Part shown: positions 10,565-48,386 of the stretch, one piece after another
Position numbering within the stretch: position 1 is the stretch's first letter
Layout of the letters: the number at the start of each line of letters is the position of its first letter
Source: Streptomyces sp. SCUT-3
GTDB taxonomy: Bacteria > Actinomycetota > Actinomycetes > Streptomycetales > Streptomycetaceae
NCBI RefSeq assembly: GCF_014083985.1
Contig: NZ_CP046907.1
Coordinates: forward strand, 5,838,501-5,902,500
Length of the DNA stretch: 64,000 nt
Direction: 5' to 3'
Made by a program: the position numbers and the translations under genes
Notes under the pieces: generated by a model
Database searches by the model: none
What the model saw: only the letters and a program-made list of their open reading frames with translations
Told to the model about the DNA's origin: nothing

Positions 10565-10579
10565 TCCCGCTGAACGGGC
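10565..10579 (+). promoter_or_regulatory. Regulon palindrome, site 1 (upstream of iclR gene)
   Basis: TCCCGCTGAACGGGC, the first of nine matching palindromes in this locus. A TACGTT candidate -10 starts at 10615, 43 bp from the palindrome centre (about -55), slightly further than at the other promoters. Its presence here suggests autoregulation of the IclR gene. Confidence 0.65.
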
Positions 10580-10685: not shown

Positions 10686-11582
10686 ATGACACTCGTCGAC
10701 TCGACCCAGCCCGTGACCGGAACGCCCGAAAAGGGCCCCCTCCCGCTGTCCATGGTCGAGCGCATGACGCTGATCATCGACGCCTTCGAACGCCGGTCCT
10801 CGCGGCTGACGCTGGAGGAGGTGGCGTGCCGCACCGGGCTGCCCCGGTCGACCGCGCACCGCATCCTGGACCAGCTCGTGCGCTGCCAGTGGCTGAACCA
10901 CACCCCGTACGGGTACGGGCTGGGACGCCGGGTGCTGGGACCGGAGGGGCAGGACGGCCTGCAGACGGAGATCCGCACCGCGGCCGCCCCGCTGCTGCAC
11001 GAACTCCACCTGCGCACCAACATGGTGGTGCACCTGGCGGTGCTGGACGGCGCCGAGGTGGTCTACCTGGACAAGGTGGGGGGCCGGTTCGCCAGCGGAC
11101 TGCCGTCCCGGGTCGGCGGACGGGCCCTCGCCCACGCCACCGGCGTGGGCAAGGCGATCCTGGCCCGGCTGGAGCCGGAGCGCGTGGACGAGCTGCTGCC
11201 GGCCCGGCTGCCCCGGAGCACCGGCCGCACCATCGGCGACCTGGCCACCCTGCGGCAGGAACTGGACCGCATCCGGCGGCGGCACGGACTGGCCTTCGAA
11301 CGCGGCGAGGCGTCCGCCGGAGTGGCCTGCGTGGCGGCGGCACTGCGCGGGCCGGAGGGGCCGGTGGCGGCCCTGTCGCTGTGCGGGGACGAGCGGACGG
11401 CCCCCCTGGAGCGGGTCGCGCCACTGGTGGTCGACGCCGCCCGGGAGGCGTCCCGGATCCTCTTCCCCGACGCGGGGACGGCCCGCCGGCCCCGCAGGGC
11501 GCCGCAGCCGCCGGGGCGCACCTGGTCCCCCGAGACCATGGTGCGACTGGTCTCCGCCGGCCACGACGACACGTGGATGTGA
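10686..11582 (+). CDS. IclR-family transcriptional regulator
   Basis: 298-residue protein with an N-terminal winged HTH (LTLEEVACRTGLPRSTAHRILDQLVRCQWL) and a C-terminal IclR effector domain (GGRALAHATGVGKAILARLEP; RRHGLAFERGEASAGVACVAA). IclR proteins often activate aromatic or steroid catabolic genes from 15-bp-class palindromes. ATG 10686 was chosen: GGAGG lies 5 bases upstream, whereas the in-frame start at 10581 lies within the promoter region. It is the first gene of the steroid locus and carries the recurring TCCCG-N5-CGGGA palindrome upstream. The inference that it is the pathway activator rests on this co-occurrence. Confidence 0.9.
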   Translation: MTLVDSTQPVTGTPEKGPLPLSMVERMTLIIDAFERRSSRLTLEEVACRTGLPRSTAHRILDQLVRCQWLNHTPYGYGLGRRVLGPEGQDGLQTEIRTAAAPLLHELHLRTNMVVHLAVLDGAEVVYLDKVGGRFASGLPSRVGGRALAHATGVGKAILARLEPERVDELLPARLPRSTGRTIGDLATLRQELDRIRRRHGLAFERGEASAGVACVAAALRGPEGPVAALSLCGDERTAPLERVAPLVVDAAREASRILFPDAGTARRPRRAPQPPGRTWSPETMVRLVSAGHDDTWM

Positions 11583-12366: not shown

Positions 12367-12381
12367 TCCCGCTGATCGGGA
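12367..12381 (+). promoter_or_regulatory. Regulon palindrome, site 3 (hsaD promoter)
   Basis: TCCCGCTGATCGGGA with perfect 5-bp arms. TAGCGT begins at 12412, so the centre is at -50 from the predicted start. No -35-like hexamer is seen at the expected place, which suggests activator dependence. Confidence 0.7.
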
Positions 12382-12489
12382 CGGCACCCGCGGCGCCCGC
12401 CGGGCCGGGGCTAGCGTCCCGGCACCGGCCGCGCACCGCACCCCGCGCACCGGCCCCTCCCGACCGTGCTTCCCCGACCGAGGCGGACG

Positions 12490-16160: not shown

Positions 16161-16175
16161 TCCCGCTGAGCGGGA
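16161..16175 (+). promoter_or_regulatory. Regulon palindrome, site 4 (hsaE promoter)
   Basis: TCCCGCTGAGCGGGA, a perfect 5-bp-arm copy. At the expected spacing the -10 is only CAGCTT (16206-16211), 38 bp from the centre, so the promoter may be weak or strongly activator-dependent. Confidence 0.65.
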
Positions 16176-16286
16176 ACGGCACCGCCGCACCCCCGCCCGC
16201 ACTGACAGCTTTGCACCGCACCCGGTGCGCACCGCGCCCGGCGCGCACCGCACCCGAAGAACACGGACCGAGCCCAGGAGGGCCAG

Positions 16287-21231: not shown

Positions 21232-21296
21232 CACCGAGCCGGTGACACCGCGCCAGCACCGCCGCACCCCCCCGACGCGGCGTCACCGGCACCACC

Positions 21297-21328
21297 GGGC
21301 CGGATCCGGGACCTCCCGGATCCGGCCC
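21297..21328 (+). terminator. Hairpin after hsaC
   Basis: 14-bp perfect stem (21297-21310 with 21315-21328, arm GGGCCGGATCCGGG), loop ACCT, followed by TCTTCG. An imperfect 15-bp inverted repeat (21239-21253 with 21276-21290) lies just before it. Confidence 0.65.
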
Positions 21329-21412
21329 TCTTCGCGTTCCGCCCCCAGCACCGCAGCACCCCAGCCCCCAGCCCCCAGCACCCCAGGACCGCAGGAGCAA
21401 AGGAGACCTCCG

Positions 21413-22895
21413 ATGAACCGCAACGCCCCCGCCGCCCCGCGCGCGGCCGAGCAGGTGCAGTCCTACGACCACGAGGCCGACGTCCTCGTGCTCGGTTTCG
21501 GCTGCGCGGGAGCCGCAGCCGCCCACGAGGCCGCCGCGGCCGGCGCCGAGGTGCTGCTGATCGAGAGGGCCGGCGGCCCCGGCGGCTCCTCCGCCCTGTC
21601 CGGCGGGAGATCTACCTCGGCGGCGGGACCCCGGTGCAGCGGGCCTGCGGCTTCGACGACACCCCGCCGAGATGGAGGCCTTCCTCACCGCCGCCCTGGG
21701 CCCGCACGCGGACGGGGCCAAGATCCGCCTCTACTGCGAGGGCAGCACCGAGCACTACCAGTGGCTGGTCGACCGCGGGGTCTCCTTCAACGCCTCGCTG
21801 TGGGACGCTCCCACCTGGATGCCGCTCACCGAGGACGGCCTGATGTGGCTGGGGGAGAACAGCTGGCCCTTCGACCGGATCGCCAAGCCCGCCCCCCGCG
21901 GCCACCGCCCCGGCACCTCCTCCTTCGGCGGCTGGCTGCTGATGGAGAAGCTCTCCGCCGCCGTCGTCGACGCCGGCGTCGGCGTGCACACCGACACCCT
22001 CGCGACGTCGCTGGTCGTCGACGCCGGCGGCCGGGTCGTCGGCGTCGCCGCCCGCCGCTACGGCGAGGAACTGCTGTACCGCGCCCGCCGCGGGGTGGTG
22101 GTCACCACCGGCGGCTTCGTCGACAACGAGGAGATGCTCGCCCAGCACGCCCCGCAGCTCCTCGGCCACGACAAGGTCAGCGACGGACTGGACGACGGCA
22201 GCGGCATCACGATGGCCGCCGCGGCAGGCGCCGCCACCCGCAGGATGTCCGTGGTGGAGACCGCCCTGTCGGTGGTCCCCGGCCTGATCGCCCGCGGCAT
22301 GCTGGTCGACGCGCTCGGCCAACGGTTCGTCAACGAGGACACCTATCCCGGCCTGATCAGCCACGCGGCGGTGCACCGCCGGCCGGGACCGGTCTGGACG
22401 ATCGTCGACGAGGAGGGCTACGAGTCGCTCGACGAGCGCGAACGCTGGGGCGTGCGGCCGCACCACGTCGCCGAAACCCTGGCCGAACTGGAGAAGGAGA
22501 CCGGCATGCCGGCCGGTTCCCTGCAGGCCACCGTCGCCGCCTACAACGAGGCCGCCGAACGCGGAGAGGACCCGTACTTCCACAAGGCCGCCCGCTGGCT
22601 GCGCCCGCTGAGCCCCCCGTACGCCGCGATCGACAGCCGGATCCGCTTCCACGCCGACCGGCCGGAGCGTGCCGGCAGCACCACCGGGGTGGCCGGCTTC
22701 ACCCTGGGCGGCCTGCACACCACGGTGGACGGGGAAGTCCTCGACCTGGCCGGGCAGCCGATCGAGGGCCTGTACGCGGCCGGCCGGGCCTCCTCGGGGA
22801 TGCACGGCGAGAACTACATCAGCGGCACCTCGCTCGGCGACGGCACCTTCTTCGGCCGCCGGGCCGGCCGGGCCGCCGCAGCGGCCGGCCGCTGA
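21413..22895 (+). CDS. KstD-like FAD dehydrogenase (frameshifted); possible delta4-dehydrogenase
   Basis: Restoring one base near 21605 and one near 21666 gives a continuous 494-residue flavoprotein. FAD motif LVLGFGCAGAAAAHEAAAAG, then a SALSGG-EIYLGGGTPVQ region split by the first loss, and C-terminus LYAAGRASSGMHGENYISG followed by SLGDGTFFGRRAGR. The C-terminal loop differs from delta1-KstD and resembles the delta4-(5alpha)-ketosteroid dehydrogenase/fumarate-reductase side of the family, so a C4-C5 desaturase is plausible. Without the missing bases the protein is broken. Both losses are in G/C runs and no other decay is seen. It is flanked by hairpins, so it is probably a single transcript. 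Confidence 0.7.
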
Positions 22896-24097: not shown

Positions 24098-25273
24098 TCA
24101 GGAGGCGCCGTCGCCGGCGGCAGCGGCCGCCGAGGCCTTGCGGGCGATGTTGTCCGCCACCTCCTGCCTCCAGGCCTCCAGCGGGCGGGTGGTGTCCAGC
24201 TCGTACTCGAACCGGTCGGTCATCTGCGGGGTGACGTCGGCGACGTCCACGTAGAACTGCTCGTACCAGCGGCGCAGCTGGTAGACAGGGCCGTCCTCCT
24301 CGCACAGCAGCGGGTTCTCGATCCGGGTCTTGTTCCGCCAGATCTCGATGTCCTGCTCGAAGCCCTTGGCGATGTAGTTGCCCATGCCCTCGGCCTGGCG
24401 GTCGGCGGCCTCGCCCGGCATGTGCTGCGACTTCTTCACCACGATGCCGTACATCAGCACGAACTTGTTCTCGGTGACGGGGTAGTGGCAGTTGATCAGC
24501 ACCGACTCGATGTCCATCGTGTCGTACTTGTAGACCAGGTCGTCGATCATGAACGACGGGCCGTGGTAGGCGGCCATGGACGTGTTGCCCTGCAGCTGCG
24601 GCTCGCCGTCCTCGGCCGGCGGGCGGACGTCCACCCGGGACAGGCCCTCCTGGTACTGGGTGGCGACGTGCCCCTCGAAGACGTTCTTGAAGTACGTCGG
24701 GAAGGAGTAGTGGACGTAGAAGAAGTGCGCCATGTCCACGACGTTGTCGATGATCTCGCGGCAGTTGGTGTCCACCACAACGGAGTTCCAGACCCAGTCG
24801 CTCCACTCGTCGCTCAGGCCGCCCTCGATCCGCGGGATCGCCTGCTCCGGGATCGGCGGGTTGCCCTCCGGGTCGTGCCAGACGAACAGCAGCCCGTCCT
24901 GGTCCAGCGTCGGCCAGGAGCGGGTGCGGGCCCGCGGGGGCACCCGGCGCGAGTAGGGGATGCCCGCGCAGCGGCCGTTGCCCGCCCACCTCCAGTCGTG
25001 GAACGGGCAGGCCACGTTGTTCCCCTTGACGGTGCCCTGGGAGAGGTCGCCGCCCATGTGCCGGCAGTACGCGTCCAGCACGGAGATCTCGCCGTTCTCC
25101 CCCTGGAAGACGACGAGTTTCTGGCCGAAGGCGTGGACGGGGTGCGGCTTCCCGTCCTTGAAGGACTTCGACAGGCCCAGGCAGTGCCAGCCTCGGGCGA
25201 ATCGGGTGGGAACCGTCCCGGCGTCGATGATGCGGACCTCGTCCTGCTCGGACTGAGTGGTGGTCACGGCCAT
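24098..25273 (-). CDS. kshA: 3-ketosteroid 9alpha-hydroxylase oxygenase (KshA)
   Basis: 391-residue Rieske non-haem iron oxygenase. The Rieske cluster pairs CRHMGGDL with CPFHDWRW (C-x-H and C-x2-H), and the catalytic iron site DMAHFFYVHYSFP holds the two His ligands. KshA hydroxylates C9 of 3-ketosteroids; with KstD this breaks ring B. Electrons come from KshB (15084). ATG 25273 follows GGGAG. The minus-strand TAGCGT (25307-25302) sits 38 bp from the centre of the regulon palindrome at 25338, which also serves the divergent HsaA-like gene. Confidence 0.92.
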   Translation of the reverse strand: MAVTTTQSEQDEVRIIDAGTVPTRFARGWHCLGLSKSFKDGKPHPVHAFGQKLVVFQGENGEISVLDAYCRHMGGDLSQGTVKGNNVACPFHDWRWAGNGRCAGIPYSRRVPPRARTRSWPTLDQDGLLFVWHDPEGNPPIPEQAIPRIEGGLSDEWSDWVWNSVVVDTNCREIIDNVVDMAHFFYVHYSFPTYFKNVFEGHVATQYQEGLSRVDVRPPAEDGEPQLQGNTSMAAYHGPSFMIDDLVYKYDTMDIESVLINCHYPVTENKFVLMYGIVVKKSQHMPGEAADRQAEGMGNYIAKGFEQDIEIWRNKTRIENPLLCEEDGPVYQLRRWYEQFYVDVADVTPQMTDRFEYELDTTRPLEAWRQEVADNIARKASAAAAAGDGAS

Positions 25274-25337
25274 CCGCTCCCTTCGTGTCTCGATCGCGCA
25301 CACGCTAGGGCGGGCGCACGCCCCGGCGGCCGGACAG

Positions 25338-25352
25338 TCCCGCTGGCCGGGA
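25338..25352. promoter_or_regulatory. Regulon palindrome, site 5 (shared by kshA and hsaA2)
   Basis: TCCCGCTGGCCGGGA. Its centre (25345) is 38 bp from TAGCGT on the minus strand (first base 25307) and 38 bp from TAGGTT on the plus strand (25383). Both promoters are thus at -50 from one site, a symmetric bidirectional arrangement. Confidence 0.75.
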
Positions 25353-25429
25353 CGCGCGGTGCCGGTGCCGCCGGGGCGCAACTAGGTTCGCGGCCTGCCG
25401 GGACGGAAGAACTGCAAAGGACGGCACGG

Positions 25430-26599
25430 ATGAGCAACCAGGTCTTGGAGTCGGTGCGGGCACTGCTCCCCGCCATCGCCGAGCGGGCGGGACGGACCGA
25501 CGAGTCCGGACGGGTCCCCGACGAGACGGTCCGCGACCTCGCCGCCGCGGGCGTCTTCCGGATGCTCCAGCCCGGGCGCCACGGCGGACTGGAGGGCGAC
25601 CCGGTGGACTTCTTCCGGGTGGTGCGCGAGATCGCCGCGGCCTGCGCCTCCACCGGCTGGGTGGCCTCGGTGCTGGGCGTCCACCCGTGGCACGTGGGCC
25701 TCTTCGACGACCGGGCGCAGACGGAGGTGTGGGGCCGGGACCGGGACACCCGGATCTCCTCCTCCTACGCGCCCGTCGGCCGGCTCGTCCCGGACGGCGA
25801 CGGCGGCCACCGGCTCTCCGGCCGGTGGCGGTTCTCCTCCGGCTGCGAGCACGCCGACTGGGCGCTGCTGGGCGCGCTGGCGGTCGGCGCCGAGGGCCGC
25901 CCGGTGGACTTCCTGACGGTGCTGGTGCCCCGCTCCGACTACCGGATCGAGCAGGTGTGGGACGTGGTCGGGCTGCGCGGCACGGCCAGCAACGACATCG
26001 TCGTCGAGGACGCGGTCGTCCCCGCCCACCGGGTGATGCGCAACTACGAGCAGGCGCAGCTGCGCGGCCCGGGCCAGAAGGCCAACACCGGGCCGCTGTA
26101 CCGGCTGCCGTTCGCCGCGGTGTTCACCCACGCCATCACCGCCCCGCTGATCGGTGCCGCGGCAGGCGCCCACGACCACTACACGGGCGTCATGAGGGAG
26201 CGGGTCCGGCTCAGCCTGGGCGGCGGACGCTTCACCGAGGACCCGTACGCGCAGGTCGCGGTGGCCCGCGCGGCCTGCGAGATCGACGCCGCCGTGCTGC
26301 AGACCGAGCGCAACCTCGCCGAGCTGGCCGAGTGCGCCGCCGCGCGGGGGCCGATCCCCGTCGAACTGAGGCTGCGCACCCGCCGCGACCAGGTCCGCGC
26401 CACCGAGCGGGCCGTCGAGGCCGTCGACCTGCTGTTCAGGACGGCGGGCGGGATGTCGCTGCGCCGCGGCCACCCCCTCGAGCGGGCCTGGCGCGACGTG
26501 CACGCGGGCAGCGTGCACGTGGCCAACGACGTCGAACGGACCCTGGCGATGTACGGCCGCAACGCCTTCGGCGCGACGGTGGAGGACCACCTGGTCTGA
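25430..26599 (+). CDS. HsaA-like flavin-dependent monooxygenase, paralogue
   Basis: 389-residue homologue of HsaA with the same fold and landmarks: VFRMLQPGRHGGLEGDPVDF, CASTGWVASVLGVHPWHV, TGGMSL-type AGGMSLRRGHPLERAWRDVH. It belongs to the group D oxygenases that need reduced flavin from a separate reductase; the only reductase seen here is HsaB. It is divergent from kshA and shares its palindrome. It may hydroxylate a different steroid phenol (for instance one with an altered ring substituent) or be redundant. A long hairpin follows it. Confidence 0.85.
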   Translation: MSNQVLESVRALLPAIAERAGRTDESGRVPDETVRDLAAAGVFRMLQPGRHGGLEGDPVDFFRVVREIAAACASTGWVASVLGVHPWHVGLFDDRAQTEVWGRDRDTRISSSYAPVGRLVPDGDGGHRLSGRWRFSSGCEHADWALLGALAVGAEGRPVDFLTVLVPRSDYRIEQVWDVVGLRGTASNDIVVEDAVVPAHRVMRNYEQAQLRGPGQKANTGPLYRLPFAAVFTHAITAPLIGAAAGAHDHYTGVMRERVRLSLGGGRFTEDPYAQVAVARAACEIDAAVLQTERNLAELAECAAARGPIPVELRLRTRRDQVRATERAVEAVDLLFRTAGGMSLRRGHPLERAWRDVHAGSVHVANDVERTLAMYGRNAFGATVEDHLV

Positions 26600-26625: not shown

Positions 26626-26690
26626 GGACGGTGACGGGCGGCGGCCCGCAGCCCCGGGGAGGGGCTGCGGGCCGCCGCCCGTCACCGTCC
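26626..26690. terminator. 30-bp perfect hairpin between convergent genes
   Basis: Arms 26626-26655 and 26661-26690 match over all 30 bases, with loop GGGGA. It separates the HsaA-like gene from the minus-strand KstD gene and can act in both directions. Confidence 0.8.
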
Positions 26691-26703
26691 GGCCCGTCCG
26701 GGC

Positions 26704-28255
26704 TCAGGCGCCCGGTGCGGGGCCGGACGCCAGGTGGCGCACCGCCGGTACGCGAACGCGTCATCATCGCGGTGCCCAGCGGGATGCCCGGCCCCGGGTA
26801 GACGGCGCCGCTGAGCGAGGCACCGGTGTTGCCGGCCGCGTACAGCCCCTCGATCGCGGTGCCGTCCTCGCGCAGCACCCGGGCGTCGGCGTCGGTGCGC
26901 AGCCCGCCCTTGGTGCCCAGGTCGCCCGGGAGGATCCGGGCCGCGTAGTACGGCGGCTGCTCCAGCGGCTGCAGGCAGTGGTTGGGGGTGGTCGCCCGGC
27001 GGTCCGCGAAGTAGCGGTCGTAGGCGTCCTCGCCCCGGTGGAAGGCGCGGTCGGCGCCCTCGGCGGCGAAGCGGTTGAACTCCTCCACCGTCCCGGCCAG
27101 CGCCTGCCCGTCCACGCCGATCAGCTCCGCCAGTTCGGGCACCGTGTCCGCCCGGACCCACGCGCCCGACTCCAGGCAGGCCTGCGGGTCCAGGTCGGGC
27201 ACGCAGACGGCGGGGAGCCGGCCGCCGTACCGGGAGTCGAAGACGAAGTGGGCCGGGACGCGGTTGCCCGGGTCGGCGTTCAGCTCCCTGCCCATCCGGT
27301 CGTAGGGCAGCGACTCGTTGGCGAACCGCCGGCCGTCGGCGCCGACGAACAGGCCGCCGCGCAGGCCGAGCACGAACGACGGCGAGCCGTCCGGCTGCGG
27401 CGACACCGGGCACCACCATGCCTGGTCCATCAGCTCGGTGGCCGCCCCGACCGCCGTCGCGGCCCGGATCGCCCCTCCGGTGTTGCTGCCGTCCGGCGCC
27501 ATCGACCAGTCGGCCGAGCCGGGAACGTTCCGGGCCCGGCGCCCGGCGGCGTCGCGCTCGAAGCCGCCGGCGGCCAGCAGCACGCCGCGCCGCGCCCGCA
27601 CCGCCGGCACGCCGTCGGCCGTCACCGCCCGGACGCCGACCACCCGGCCGCCGTCGACCACCAGTTCCGTCACGTCGGTGCCGGTGCGCACCTCGCCCCG
27701 GCCGGTGCGGTGCAGGGCCAGCAGCAGCCGTCCGATCAGCGCCCGTCCCGCCGACAGGACCGGGCCGTTGCCCTGCCCGGCGCGGTCGAGGTCCACCGGC
27801 GGCCGGACCAGCGCGGCCAGCTCGCCCAGCTGTTCGGCGGGCAGGTCCCGGGCGACGAGGGAGCGCCCCAGGTCCAGGCGCCCGGGGGCGTCGAAGTAGT
27901 CCGGGAACGGCTGCCAGGCGAACTCCACGTCCGGGGTCGACTCCAGCATCTCCACCACGGCGGGCGCGGTGTCGACGAAGGCGTCCTGCCGCTCGGCCGT
28001 GCCCTCGCCGAGCAGCGACCGCAGGTAGGTGCGGGCCAGCTCGGTGGAGTCGGCGACGCCCTCCCGCTCCTGCACCCGGCTGCCGGAGCCAGCAGGCCCC
28101 CGGTAGGAGGAGGTGCCGCCGACCAGGGCGGTCCGCTCCAGCACCACCGTCTCCAGCCCTTCGAGGGCGGCCGTGCAGGCGCCGGTGAGCGCCCCCGCCC
28201 CCGAGCCCACCAGTACGTCGCATTCCGCGTCCCATGTCATCGGGGTCCCGCTCAC
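26704..28255 (-). CDS. 3-ketosteroid dehydrogenase paralogue (frameshifted)
   Basis: KstD-family flavoprotein of about 517 residues once repaired. FAD motif CDVLVGSGAGALTGACTAAL, VVLERTALVGGTSSY, LFVGADGRRFANESLPYDR, and [20 protein letters not shown]. The C-terminal YPGPGIPLGTAM should continue into FAYRAVRHLA, but bases are missing near 26745 and 26757. Near the N-terminus (28083-28103) three bases are lost close together, so the frame recovers but the usual G-ACWLPGS motif is scrambled. GTG 28255 follows AGGAGG. TTGCGT (28297-28292) lies 38 bp from the site-6 palindrome centre. It is probably functional in the real genome, as all losses are in G/C runs. Confidence 0.75.
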
Positions 28256-28327: not shown

Positions 28328-28342
28328 TCCCGCTCACCGGAA
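28328..28342 (-). promoter_or_regulatory. Regulon palindrome, site 6 (kstD paralogue / tetR gap)
   Basis: TCCCGCTCACCGGAA. On the minus strand TTGCGT (one change from TAGCGT) starts 38 bp away, centre at -50. No good -10 is at that distance on the plus strand, so the TetR gene probably uses another promoter (a TATTGT-like box lies near 28408). Confidence 0.6.
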
Positions 28343-28449
28343 GGGGAACTGGCGCCCGGCGGCCCGGAGGCGGTGGGATCACCTCCCGTGCGAACGCCCC
28401 GGGCTGTGTATTGTCGAGGCGTTCCGAACCCCGAGGGAGTGAGGCAGCA

Positions 28450-29088
28450 GTGGCCAGAGTCGCCGAGGGCCGGGCGGCGGCCGAACCCACCTCCGCCGAG
28501 CAACGGGCCCGCTACCTGCGGATCCTGGAGGTGGCGGCGGAACTCGCCTCCGACAAGGGCCTGGAGCGGTCCAGATGCACGAGGTCGCCAAGGGCGCCGG
28601 GTCGCCATCGGGACGCTCTACCGGTACTTCCCCTCCAAGACGCACCTGTTCGTCGGCGTGATGGCCGACCAGATGGAGCGCCTGTCGGAGCGGCTGGCCA
28701 AGCGCCCAGGGCCGACCTGCGGCCCGACGAGGCCGCGTTCGCGGTCCTGCAGAAGTCCACGCACGCCCTGATGCGGCGCCCGGCCCTCGCGATGGCGATG
28801 ATCTCCTCGTCCAACGCGGCCAACGCGGCCACGGTGACCGACGTCGGCCGCATCGACCGCGGGTTCCGCAAGATCCTGCTGGACGCGATGGGCCTGGAGC
28901 ACCCCACCGCCCACGACATCACGCTCCTGCGGCTGCTGCTGCAACTGTGGTACGGGGTACTGCAGTCCAGCCTCAACGGCCGCATCTCCATGCCGGACGC
29001 CGAGTCCGACGTCCGGCTCGCCTGCCGGCTGCTGCTGGCCGGCCTGTCCAACGCGGCACCGGGAAGCCCCCCGCCCGCCCAGGACTGA
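28450..29088 (+). CDS. TetR-family regulator, KstR-like (three frameshifts)
   Basis: Reading on from GTG 28450 needs three restored bases (near 28569, 28600 and 28708) to give a 213-residue protein. The repaired HTH reads VQMHEVAKGAGVAIGTLYRY followed by FPSKTHLF, close to the KstR recognition helix region (VQM...VGTLYRYFPSK). The C-terminal ligand domain (ALAMAMISSSNAANAA; LLLQLWYGVLQSSLNGRI) is intact. KstR proteins repress steroid genes and are released by CoA thioesters of steroid acids. Position inside the steroid locus supports this. All three losses are single bases in G/C runs. As given, the protein would be truncated within the DNA-binding domain. Confidence 0.7.
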   Translation: MARVAEGRAAAEPTSAEQRARYLRILEVAAELASDKGLERSRCTRSPRAPGRHRDALPVLPLQDAPVRRRDGRPDGAPVGAAGQAPRADLRPDEAAFAVLQKSTHALMRRPALAMAMISSSNAANAATVTDVGRIDRGFRKILLDAMGLEHPTAHDITLLRLLLQLWYGVLQSSLNGRISMPDAESDVRLACRLLLAGLSNAAPGSPPPAQD

Positions 29089-29151: not shown

Positions 29152-29166
29152 TCCCGGTCACCGGGA
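29152..29166 (+). promoter_or_regulatory. Regulon palindrome, site 7 (3alpha-HSD-like gene)
   Basis: TCCCGGTCACCGGGA. TAGCGT begins at 29196, 37 bp from the centre (-49). No -35-like hexamer is visible. It lies 64 bp after the TetR stop and 81 bp before the SDR start. Confidence 0.7.
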
Positions 29167-32395: not shown

Positions 32396-32410
32396 TCCCG
32401 GCCAGTGGGA
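32396..32410 (+). promoter_or_regulatory. Regulon palindrome, site 8 (FadD19-like gene)
   Basis: TCCCGGCCAGTGGGA, 21 bp after the racemase stop. TAATTT begins at 32441, 38 bp from the centre (-50). Unusually for this set a -35-like TTGTGC (32418-32423) with a 17-bp spacer is also present. Confidence 0.65.
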
Positions 32411-48264: not shown

Positions 48265-48279
48265 TCCCGGTGAGCGGGA
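48265..48279 (+). promoter_or_regulatory. Regulon palindrome, site 9 (final side-chain operon)
   Basis: TCCCGGTGAGCGGGA with perfect arms. TAGCGT begins at 48310, 38 bp from the centre (-50). No -35-like hexamer. On the minus strand, toward the FadD gene, the -10 at the same distance is poor (GACCTT). Confidence 0.7.
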
Positions 48280-48386
48280 CGCTGCGGGGCGGCCCCCCGC
48301 CGGGCCGGTTAGCGTCCGGCGCACAAGCACCGGAGCAGCACGGGACCACCGCTGCCGCCGGGCCGTGCCGTAGGAGGAGGCTCCCC

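Follow-up and report, generated by a model that had tools for sequence, protein, structure and literature searches.

A Lcin1-like palindrome as predicted shared operator of mirrored promoters between kshA and an hsaA paralogue in Streptomyces sp. SCUT-3

Introduction

The operators of KstR and KstR2 have been described as TNNAACGTGTTNNA and AAGCAAGNNCTTGCTT, respectively (PMC8228715). Neither kshA1 nor kshA2 of Rhodococcus ruber has a KstR site; both genes respond to steroids, androstenedione and cholic acid among them, and were said to require another regulator, and shortened promoter fragments of both showed activity on plates to which no steroid had been added (PMC8228715). How kshA genes that lack KstR sites are activated has been posed as an open question (PMC8228715). 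In Nocardioides simplex VKM Ac-2033D, phylogenetic footprinting predicted a motif named Lcin1, TCCCGGT[C/G]ACCGGGA, which sits at lithocholate-induced (bile-acid) steroid genes including a kshA orthologue, and the KstR3 orthologue KR76_18060 was proposed as its regulator (PMC7593942). In Escherichia coli, activation of divergent promoters from one CRP site is established (El-Robh and Busby 2002, as cited in PMC3105977). We describe here a palindrome between divergent kshA and hsaA-type genes that resembles Lcin1 in sequence and the CRP case in layout.

The Site and Its Gene Neighborhood

The stretch analyzed (the window, 64 kb) covers positions 5,838,501-5,902,500 of the 6.08-Mb single-contig genome and has a GC content of 74%; positions below are those of the window. 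On the minus strand, kshA (24098-25273) encodes 3-ketosteroid 9alpha-hydroxylase oxygenase, with KshA_C (Pfam, E 8e-91) and Rieske domains, and carries the Shine-Dalgarno (SD)-like sequence GAAGGGAG ahead of its ATG at 25273. The divergent plus-strand gene (25430-26599) has SD-like AAAGGAC ahead of its ATG at 25430, and its product, a flavin-dependent monooxygenase, scored 609 bits against the NCBIfam HsaA model (NF045629; cut-off 450), so that both gene names given by the initial annotation, kshA and HsaA paralogue (hsaA2 below), hold. The surrounding steroid/bile-acid catabolism cluster includes kshA, the HsaA-type monooxygenase, KstD-like, hsaC-like, hsaD-like, hsaE-like, SDR and acyl-CoA genes, and one product is above the cut-off for CasG, steroid-24-oyl-CoA synthetase. 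A KstD/FAD-dependent dehydrogenase-like gene (21242-22895) is apparently split across two frames, and a KstR-like TetR gene (28402-29088) is spread over three, with its helix-turn-helix part out of frame and an intact relative in locus L008. Together, these frames suggest indel errors in the assembly; the TetR gene may reflect such sequencing errors or a broken regulator.

Between kshA and hsaA2 lies TCCCGCTGGCCGGGA (25338-25352), which has perfect 5-bp arms around a 5-bp center and extends at 25337-25353 to 6-bp arms, GTCCCG-N5-CGGGAC; its sequence, and its conservation between the two genes in relatives, make it a Lcin1-like predicted operator. The center, CTGGC, is not itself symmetric. The predicted -10 element of kshA is TAGCGT on the minus strand (25302-25307; ACGCTA on the plus strand), and that of hsaA2 is TAGGTT on the plus strand (25383-25388). 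Direct sequence reading confirmed the claim from which this work started, namely that a single palindrome has these two hexamers 38 bp away in opposite directions: each starts 38 bp from the dyad (25345), so that the one site is at equal distance, 30 nt measured from either edge of the palindrome, from the two divergent predicted -10 elements. Start codons and SD-like sequences also read at fitting distances on both sides. When the flanks were shuffled 20,000 times with dinucleotides preserved, TANNNT appeared in both flanks in 0.65% of shuffles and at equal offsets in none.

A KstR operator was considered as an explanation for the site and rejected, as inspection by eye of 25274-25429 found no AACNNGTT core, only AACTAGGTT, with the wrong central spacing.

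A Motif Shared across the Window and the Genome

In genome-wide pattern searches, TCCCGN5CGGGA occurred 45 times and its reversed control pattern 30 times, whereas the window alone held 7 exact copies against 0.4-0.5 expected (P about 3e-7 to 7e-7), an enrichment of about 15-fold. The full architecture, TCCCGN6GGGA-N29/30-TANNNT, had 8 matches genome-wide, 6 of them in the window (counting the mirrored 25338 site once per direction), against 0 for the reversed control pattern. With two mismatches allowed, GTCCCGN5CGGGAC was at chance level in the window, and the analysis was therefore confined to exact or near-exact arms in combination with the -10 spacing; a generic search for TAG-N11-CTA was uninformative. 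That null count, and the commonness of short GC-rich palindromes at 74% GC, would suit a chance reading, in which a GC-rich inverted repeat merely lies between two unrelated promoters. However, the enrichment of exact arms and the absence of equal offsets among the shuffles speak against chance, and the conservation of sequence, place and spacing across genera refutes it; we consider this reading extremely improbable.

Other copies of the motif precede steroid genes of the cluster. On the plus strand, motif searches placed sites at 12367-12381, with TAGCGT at 12412-12417, ahead of an hsaD-like hydrolase (12466) and an FAD-dependent oxidoreductase; at 16161-16175, with CAGCTT at 16206-16211, ahead of an hsaE-like hydratase (16287); and at 29152-29166 (TCCCGGTCACCGGGA), which precedes an SDR gene (29247) and has TAGCGT at 29 nt. 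The architecture search added 32396-32410 (TCCCGGCCAGTGGGA), also on the plus strand, which precedes an acyl-CoA ligase and has TAATTT at 30 nt. A minus-strand site with one arm mismatch (28328-28342) has TTGCGT at 28297-28292 towards a KstD-like gene (26682-28243). A second divergent site, 48265-48279, has TAGCGT at 48310-48315 on the plus strand towards an OYE-family gene and GACCTT at 48234-48229 on the minus strand towards the casG-like steroid-24-oyl-CoA synthetase gene, both at 30 nt. TAGCGT itself recurs at 29-30 nt from the motif copies ahead of the hsaD-like, SDR and OYE-family genes. By its sequence, the 25338 palindrome is one member of a predicted regulon-wide motif and layout; the initial annotation had presented it as a rarely clean case, of which the geometry is real, but the site is no unique curiosity. 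Outside the window, L007 1434-1550 (genome positions 5960104-5960220) contains two motif copies 67 bp apart, and the second copy has a TAGCGT 29 nt away.

Promoter Anatomy

The 33 promoter-oriented sites gave the consensus TCCCGNYSANYGGGA, followed at 29-30 nt by TANNNT. A -35 element was sought in the spacers, where the best TTGACA match averaged 2.0 of 6 positions against 2.18 in shuffled spacers, and no spacer position was -35-like. If the -10 element is taken to occupy -12 to -7, the dyad would fall near -50 and the palindrome at about -57 to -43, which would leave the polymerase footprint free on each side. From what is generally known of bacterial promoters, we infer that an operator in such a position is of the activator type rather than the repressor type, and the missing -35 element, together with the site position, fits a putative activator.

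Conservation among Relatives and the Second Direction

KshA relatives were collected from named genomes; 29 of these regions had an hsaA2 homologue divergent from kshA, which gave 30 regions with the window added, and the genus of the strain was represented in the searched set by this one genome. The compared loci share ancestry, and the counts that follow are not independent events: the kshA side fits in 30 of the 30 regions, 25 directly and 5 with variant arms or -10. The best palindrome was scored automatically in 25 loci, all of which have a single TANNNT in the 70 nt towards kshA; its distance is 29 nt in 15 loci and 30 nt in 10. The other five, four from Nocardioides and one from Saccharopolyspora, show variant arms, for example TTCCG or TACCG, and have GAGACT, GACACT or TAACTT at 30 nt on the kshA side; their spacing on both sides is 30-31 nt. 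In Mycobacterium shimoidei and M. kyorinense (L065 5947, L079 5941), TCCCTGCCAGCGGGA precedes kshA, and the TAATGT/TAGTGT at 29 nt from it faces away from the gene.

The hsaA2 side is less uniform, and it bears on the alternative that the palindrome controls only the kshA direction, the hexamer facing hsaA2 being weak or belonging to an unrelated promoter and the mirror arrangement being partly coincidence. Of the 33 promoter-oriented sites, 32 have A at motif position 8, the sole exception being the 25338 site read towards hsaA2; since this A is missing only in that direction, the operator leans towards kshA. In most relatives the hsaA2-side -10 is a weaker, non-consensus hexamer (CACCAT, GACCAT, CATTCT), and the Actinomadura madurae group is an exception to the spacing, with hsaA2-side candidates at 23 and 26 nt, outside the 29-31 nt range. 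On the other hand, [TC]A...T occurs at 29-31 nt on the hsaA2 side in 13 of 25 loci against about 0.7 expected, roughly 20-fold over background; a full TANNNT is present both in the window (30 nt) and in Streptomyces sulphureus (29 nt); and CATTCT or CATCCT stands at 30-31 nt in the Nocardioides loci. Control of kshA alone therefore appears improbable to us, and the second direction could still be a minor one, given the asymmetry of the site and the weak hsaA2-side -10 elements. The mirror symmetry proposed by the initial annotation stands with regard to the equal 30-nt spacing but is imperfect, with a center that favors kshA and an hsaA2-side -10 that is usually weaker in relatives.

One palindrome common to both directions, with a hexamer on each side at 29-31 nt, was found in about 11 genera, including Streptomyces, Microtetraspora, Sphaerisporangium, Actinomadura (A. 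craniellae), Microbispora, Actinoallomurus, Geodermatophilus, Nocardiopsis, Saccharopolyspora, Saccharomonospora and Nocardioides. Several Rhodococcus and Streptomyces loci have a separate palindrome per direction, and each of the two lies 29-30 nt from the -10 that it faces (L009, L012, L013, L025 and L035). Neither L019 nor L032 yielded a further palindrome for hsaA2 when one was sought, and both loci are exceptions in which the hsaA2-side candidate is placed differently. At two Nocardioides loci (L041 and L049), the hsaA2-side CATTCT lies only about 6-7 nt before the ATG, which suggests a leaderless hsaA2 transcript.

Candidate Regulators

IclR proteins often control neighboring catabolic operons. 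The best candidate for the palindrome binder is encoded at 10686-11582 on the plus strand, and its product belongs to the IclR family according to Pfam (HTH_IclR, 48.2 bits, gathering threshold 22; IclR_C, 108 bits, threshold 24); its best NCBIfam match, PcaR/PcaU/PobR (TIGR02431), reached 103.2 bits against a cut-off of 284.75, which places it outside that subfamily. Among 296 genomes of the class, a close IclR orthologue (E <= 1e-60) was present in 5 of the 5 genomes with at least two strict sites and in 6 of the 291 others. Motif sites also lie about 0.06-1.2 kb from IclR genes, including those of distant paralogues, in G002, G031, G066 and G241. Because of this co-occurrence and adjacency, we propose the IclR-family protein as the most likely binder. 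Orthologues are also found in genomes with few or no sites (G045, G063, G086 and G202), and the known IclR group 1 consensus, GKTYCRY...RYGRAMC (PMC8222616), bears only a loose likeness to the TCCCG-N5-CGGGA found here. About 110 bp ahead of the iclR start, a pattern search located the plus-strand near-match TCCCGCTGAACGGGC (10565-10579), which has no -10 at 29-30 nt and is a possible autoregulatory site; the IclR orthologue in L094 has a comparable site upstream.

The palindrome might instead be the operator of the KstR-like TetR protein (KstR3-type, approximately 28429-29088), acting as a repressor or, less usually, as an activator. Of the 5 genomes with at least two strict sites, 4 have a close TetR relative, a co-occurrence that almost matches that of IclR, and in many loci the TetR relative lies within the same gene cluster; the sites at 28328 and 29152 flank tetR here, and the authors of Lcin1 favored the KstR3 orthologue (PMC7593942). 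However, an operator at constant distance upstream of the would-be -35 is more in keeping with activation than with repression, both G031 and G100 combine convincing sites with an IclR orthologue and lack a close TetR relative, and in G002 and G066 the sites adjoin IclR genes in genomes where no close TetR relative was found. The helix-turn-helix region of the TetR gene is, in addition, out of frame in this assembly. We thus regard the TetR/KstR3-like protein as a weaker candidate than IclR, and this reading as rather unlikely.

In the mechanism that we propose with the IclR-family protein as binder, a ligand-responsive dimeric activator, most likely the product of 10686-11582, would bind the palindrome near -50 of each start and would help RNA polymerase where the -10 sits 29-30 nt from the site without a useful -35. 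The near two-fold symmetry of the operator, together with the fixed spacing, would allow the one site between kshA and the hsaA paralogue to serve both directions and would make the two promoters mirror images. The symmetric activator dimer working both ways, as the initial annotation had suggested, is a plausible mechanism with comparative support: the layout, its recurrence, the lack of a -35 and the conservation would all fit it, but the symmetry is imperfect. Full activator dependence is not a given, since the R. ruber kshA1 and kshA2 fragments were active without added steroid. Judging from the sequences compared, we consider it probable that the palindrome is a steroid/bile-acid regulon operator at which a dimeric activator, most likely the IclR protein of the cluster, serves both the kshA and the hsaA2 directions.

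Significance and Comparison with Known Systems

With a motif, strictly spaced promoter elements and a specific candidate regulator, the question of kshA switch-on becomes directly testable. We put forward only tentatively, as a possibility that we would not yet favor, the broader proposal that an IclR-type dimer on one symmetric site recruits polymerase both ways at promoters lacking a -35, that this is conserved at kshA/hsaA across many actinobacterial genera, and that the IclR-type protein is the missing KstR-independent regulator of steroid-ring degradation. As a natural mirrored promoter pair kept across genera, the locus may serve as a model for one activator serving two polymerases, and as a compact two-way promoter for steroid biotechnology strains.

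The motif itself has already been predicted as Lcin1: the arms of the 25338 site are identical to it and two central positions differ, whereas the 29152 site is an exact match. The location upstream of steroid/bile-acid catabolism genes is likewise shared, here at kshA, hsaA, hsaD-like, hsaE-like and casG-like genes. The accessible part of the Lcin1 work gives the motif and candidate regulators only, while the fixed -10 spacing, the missing -35 and the shared divergent use come from the present analysis; no description of the fixed spacing or of the mirrored sharing was found in the literature examined, the coverage of which was incomplete. The TetR repressors KstR and KstR2 also control steroid degradation in actinobacteria, with operators unrelated in sequence to the palindrome here. 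The IclR activators PcaR/PcaU/PobR form the subfamily closest to the candidate regulator, whose score falls far below their cut-off, and their operator sequence differs. In layout, the divergent CRP case is similar in that one site lies between divergent promoters, with a dimeric activator that is established for CRP and proposed here. CRP belongs to another protein family and has its own motif, whereas the case described here is built on sequence evidence and consists of a layout conserved at one gene pair across actinobacterial genera.
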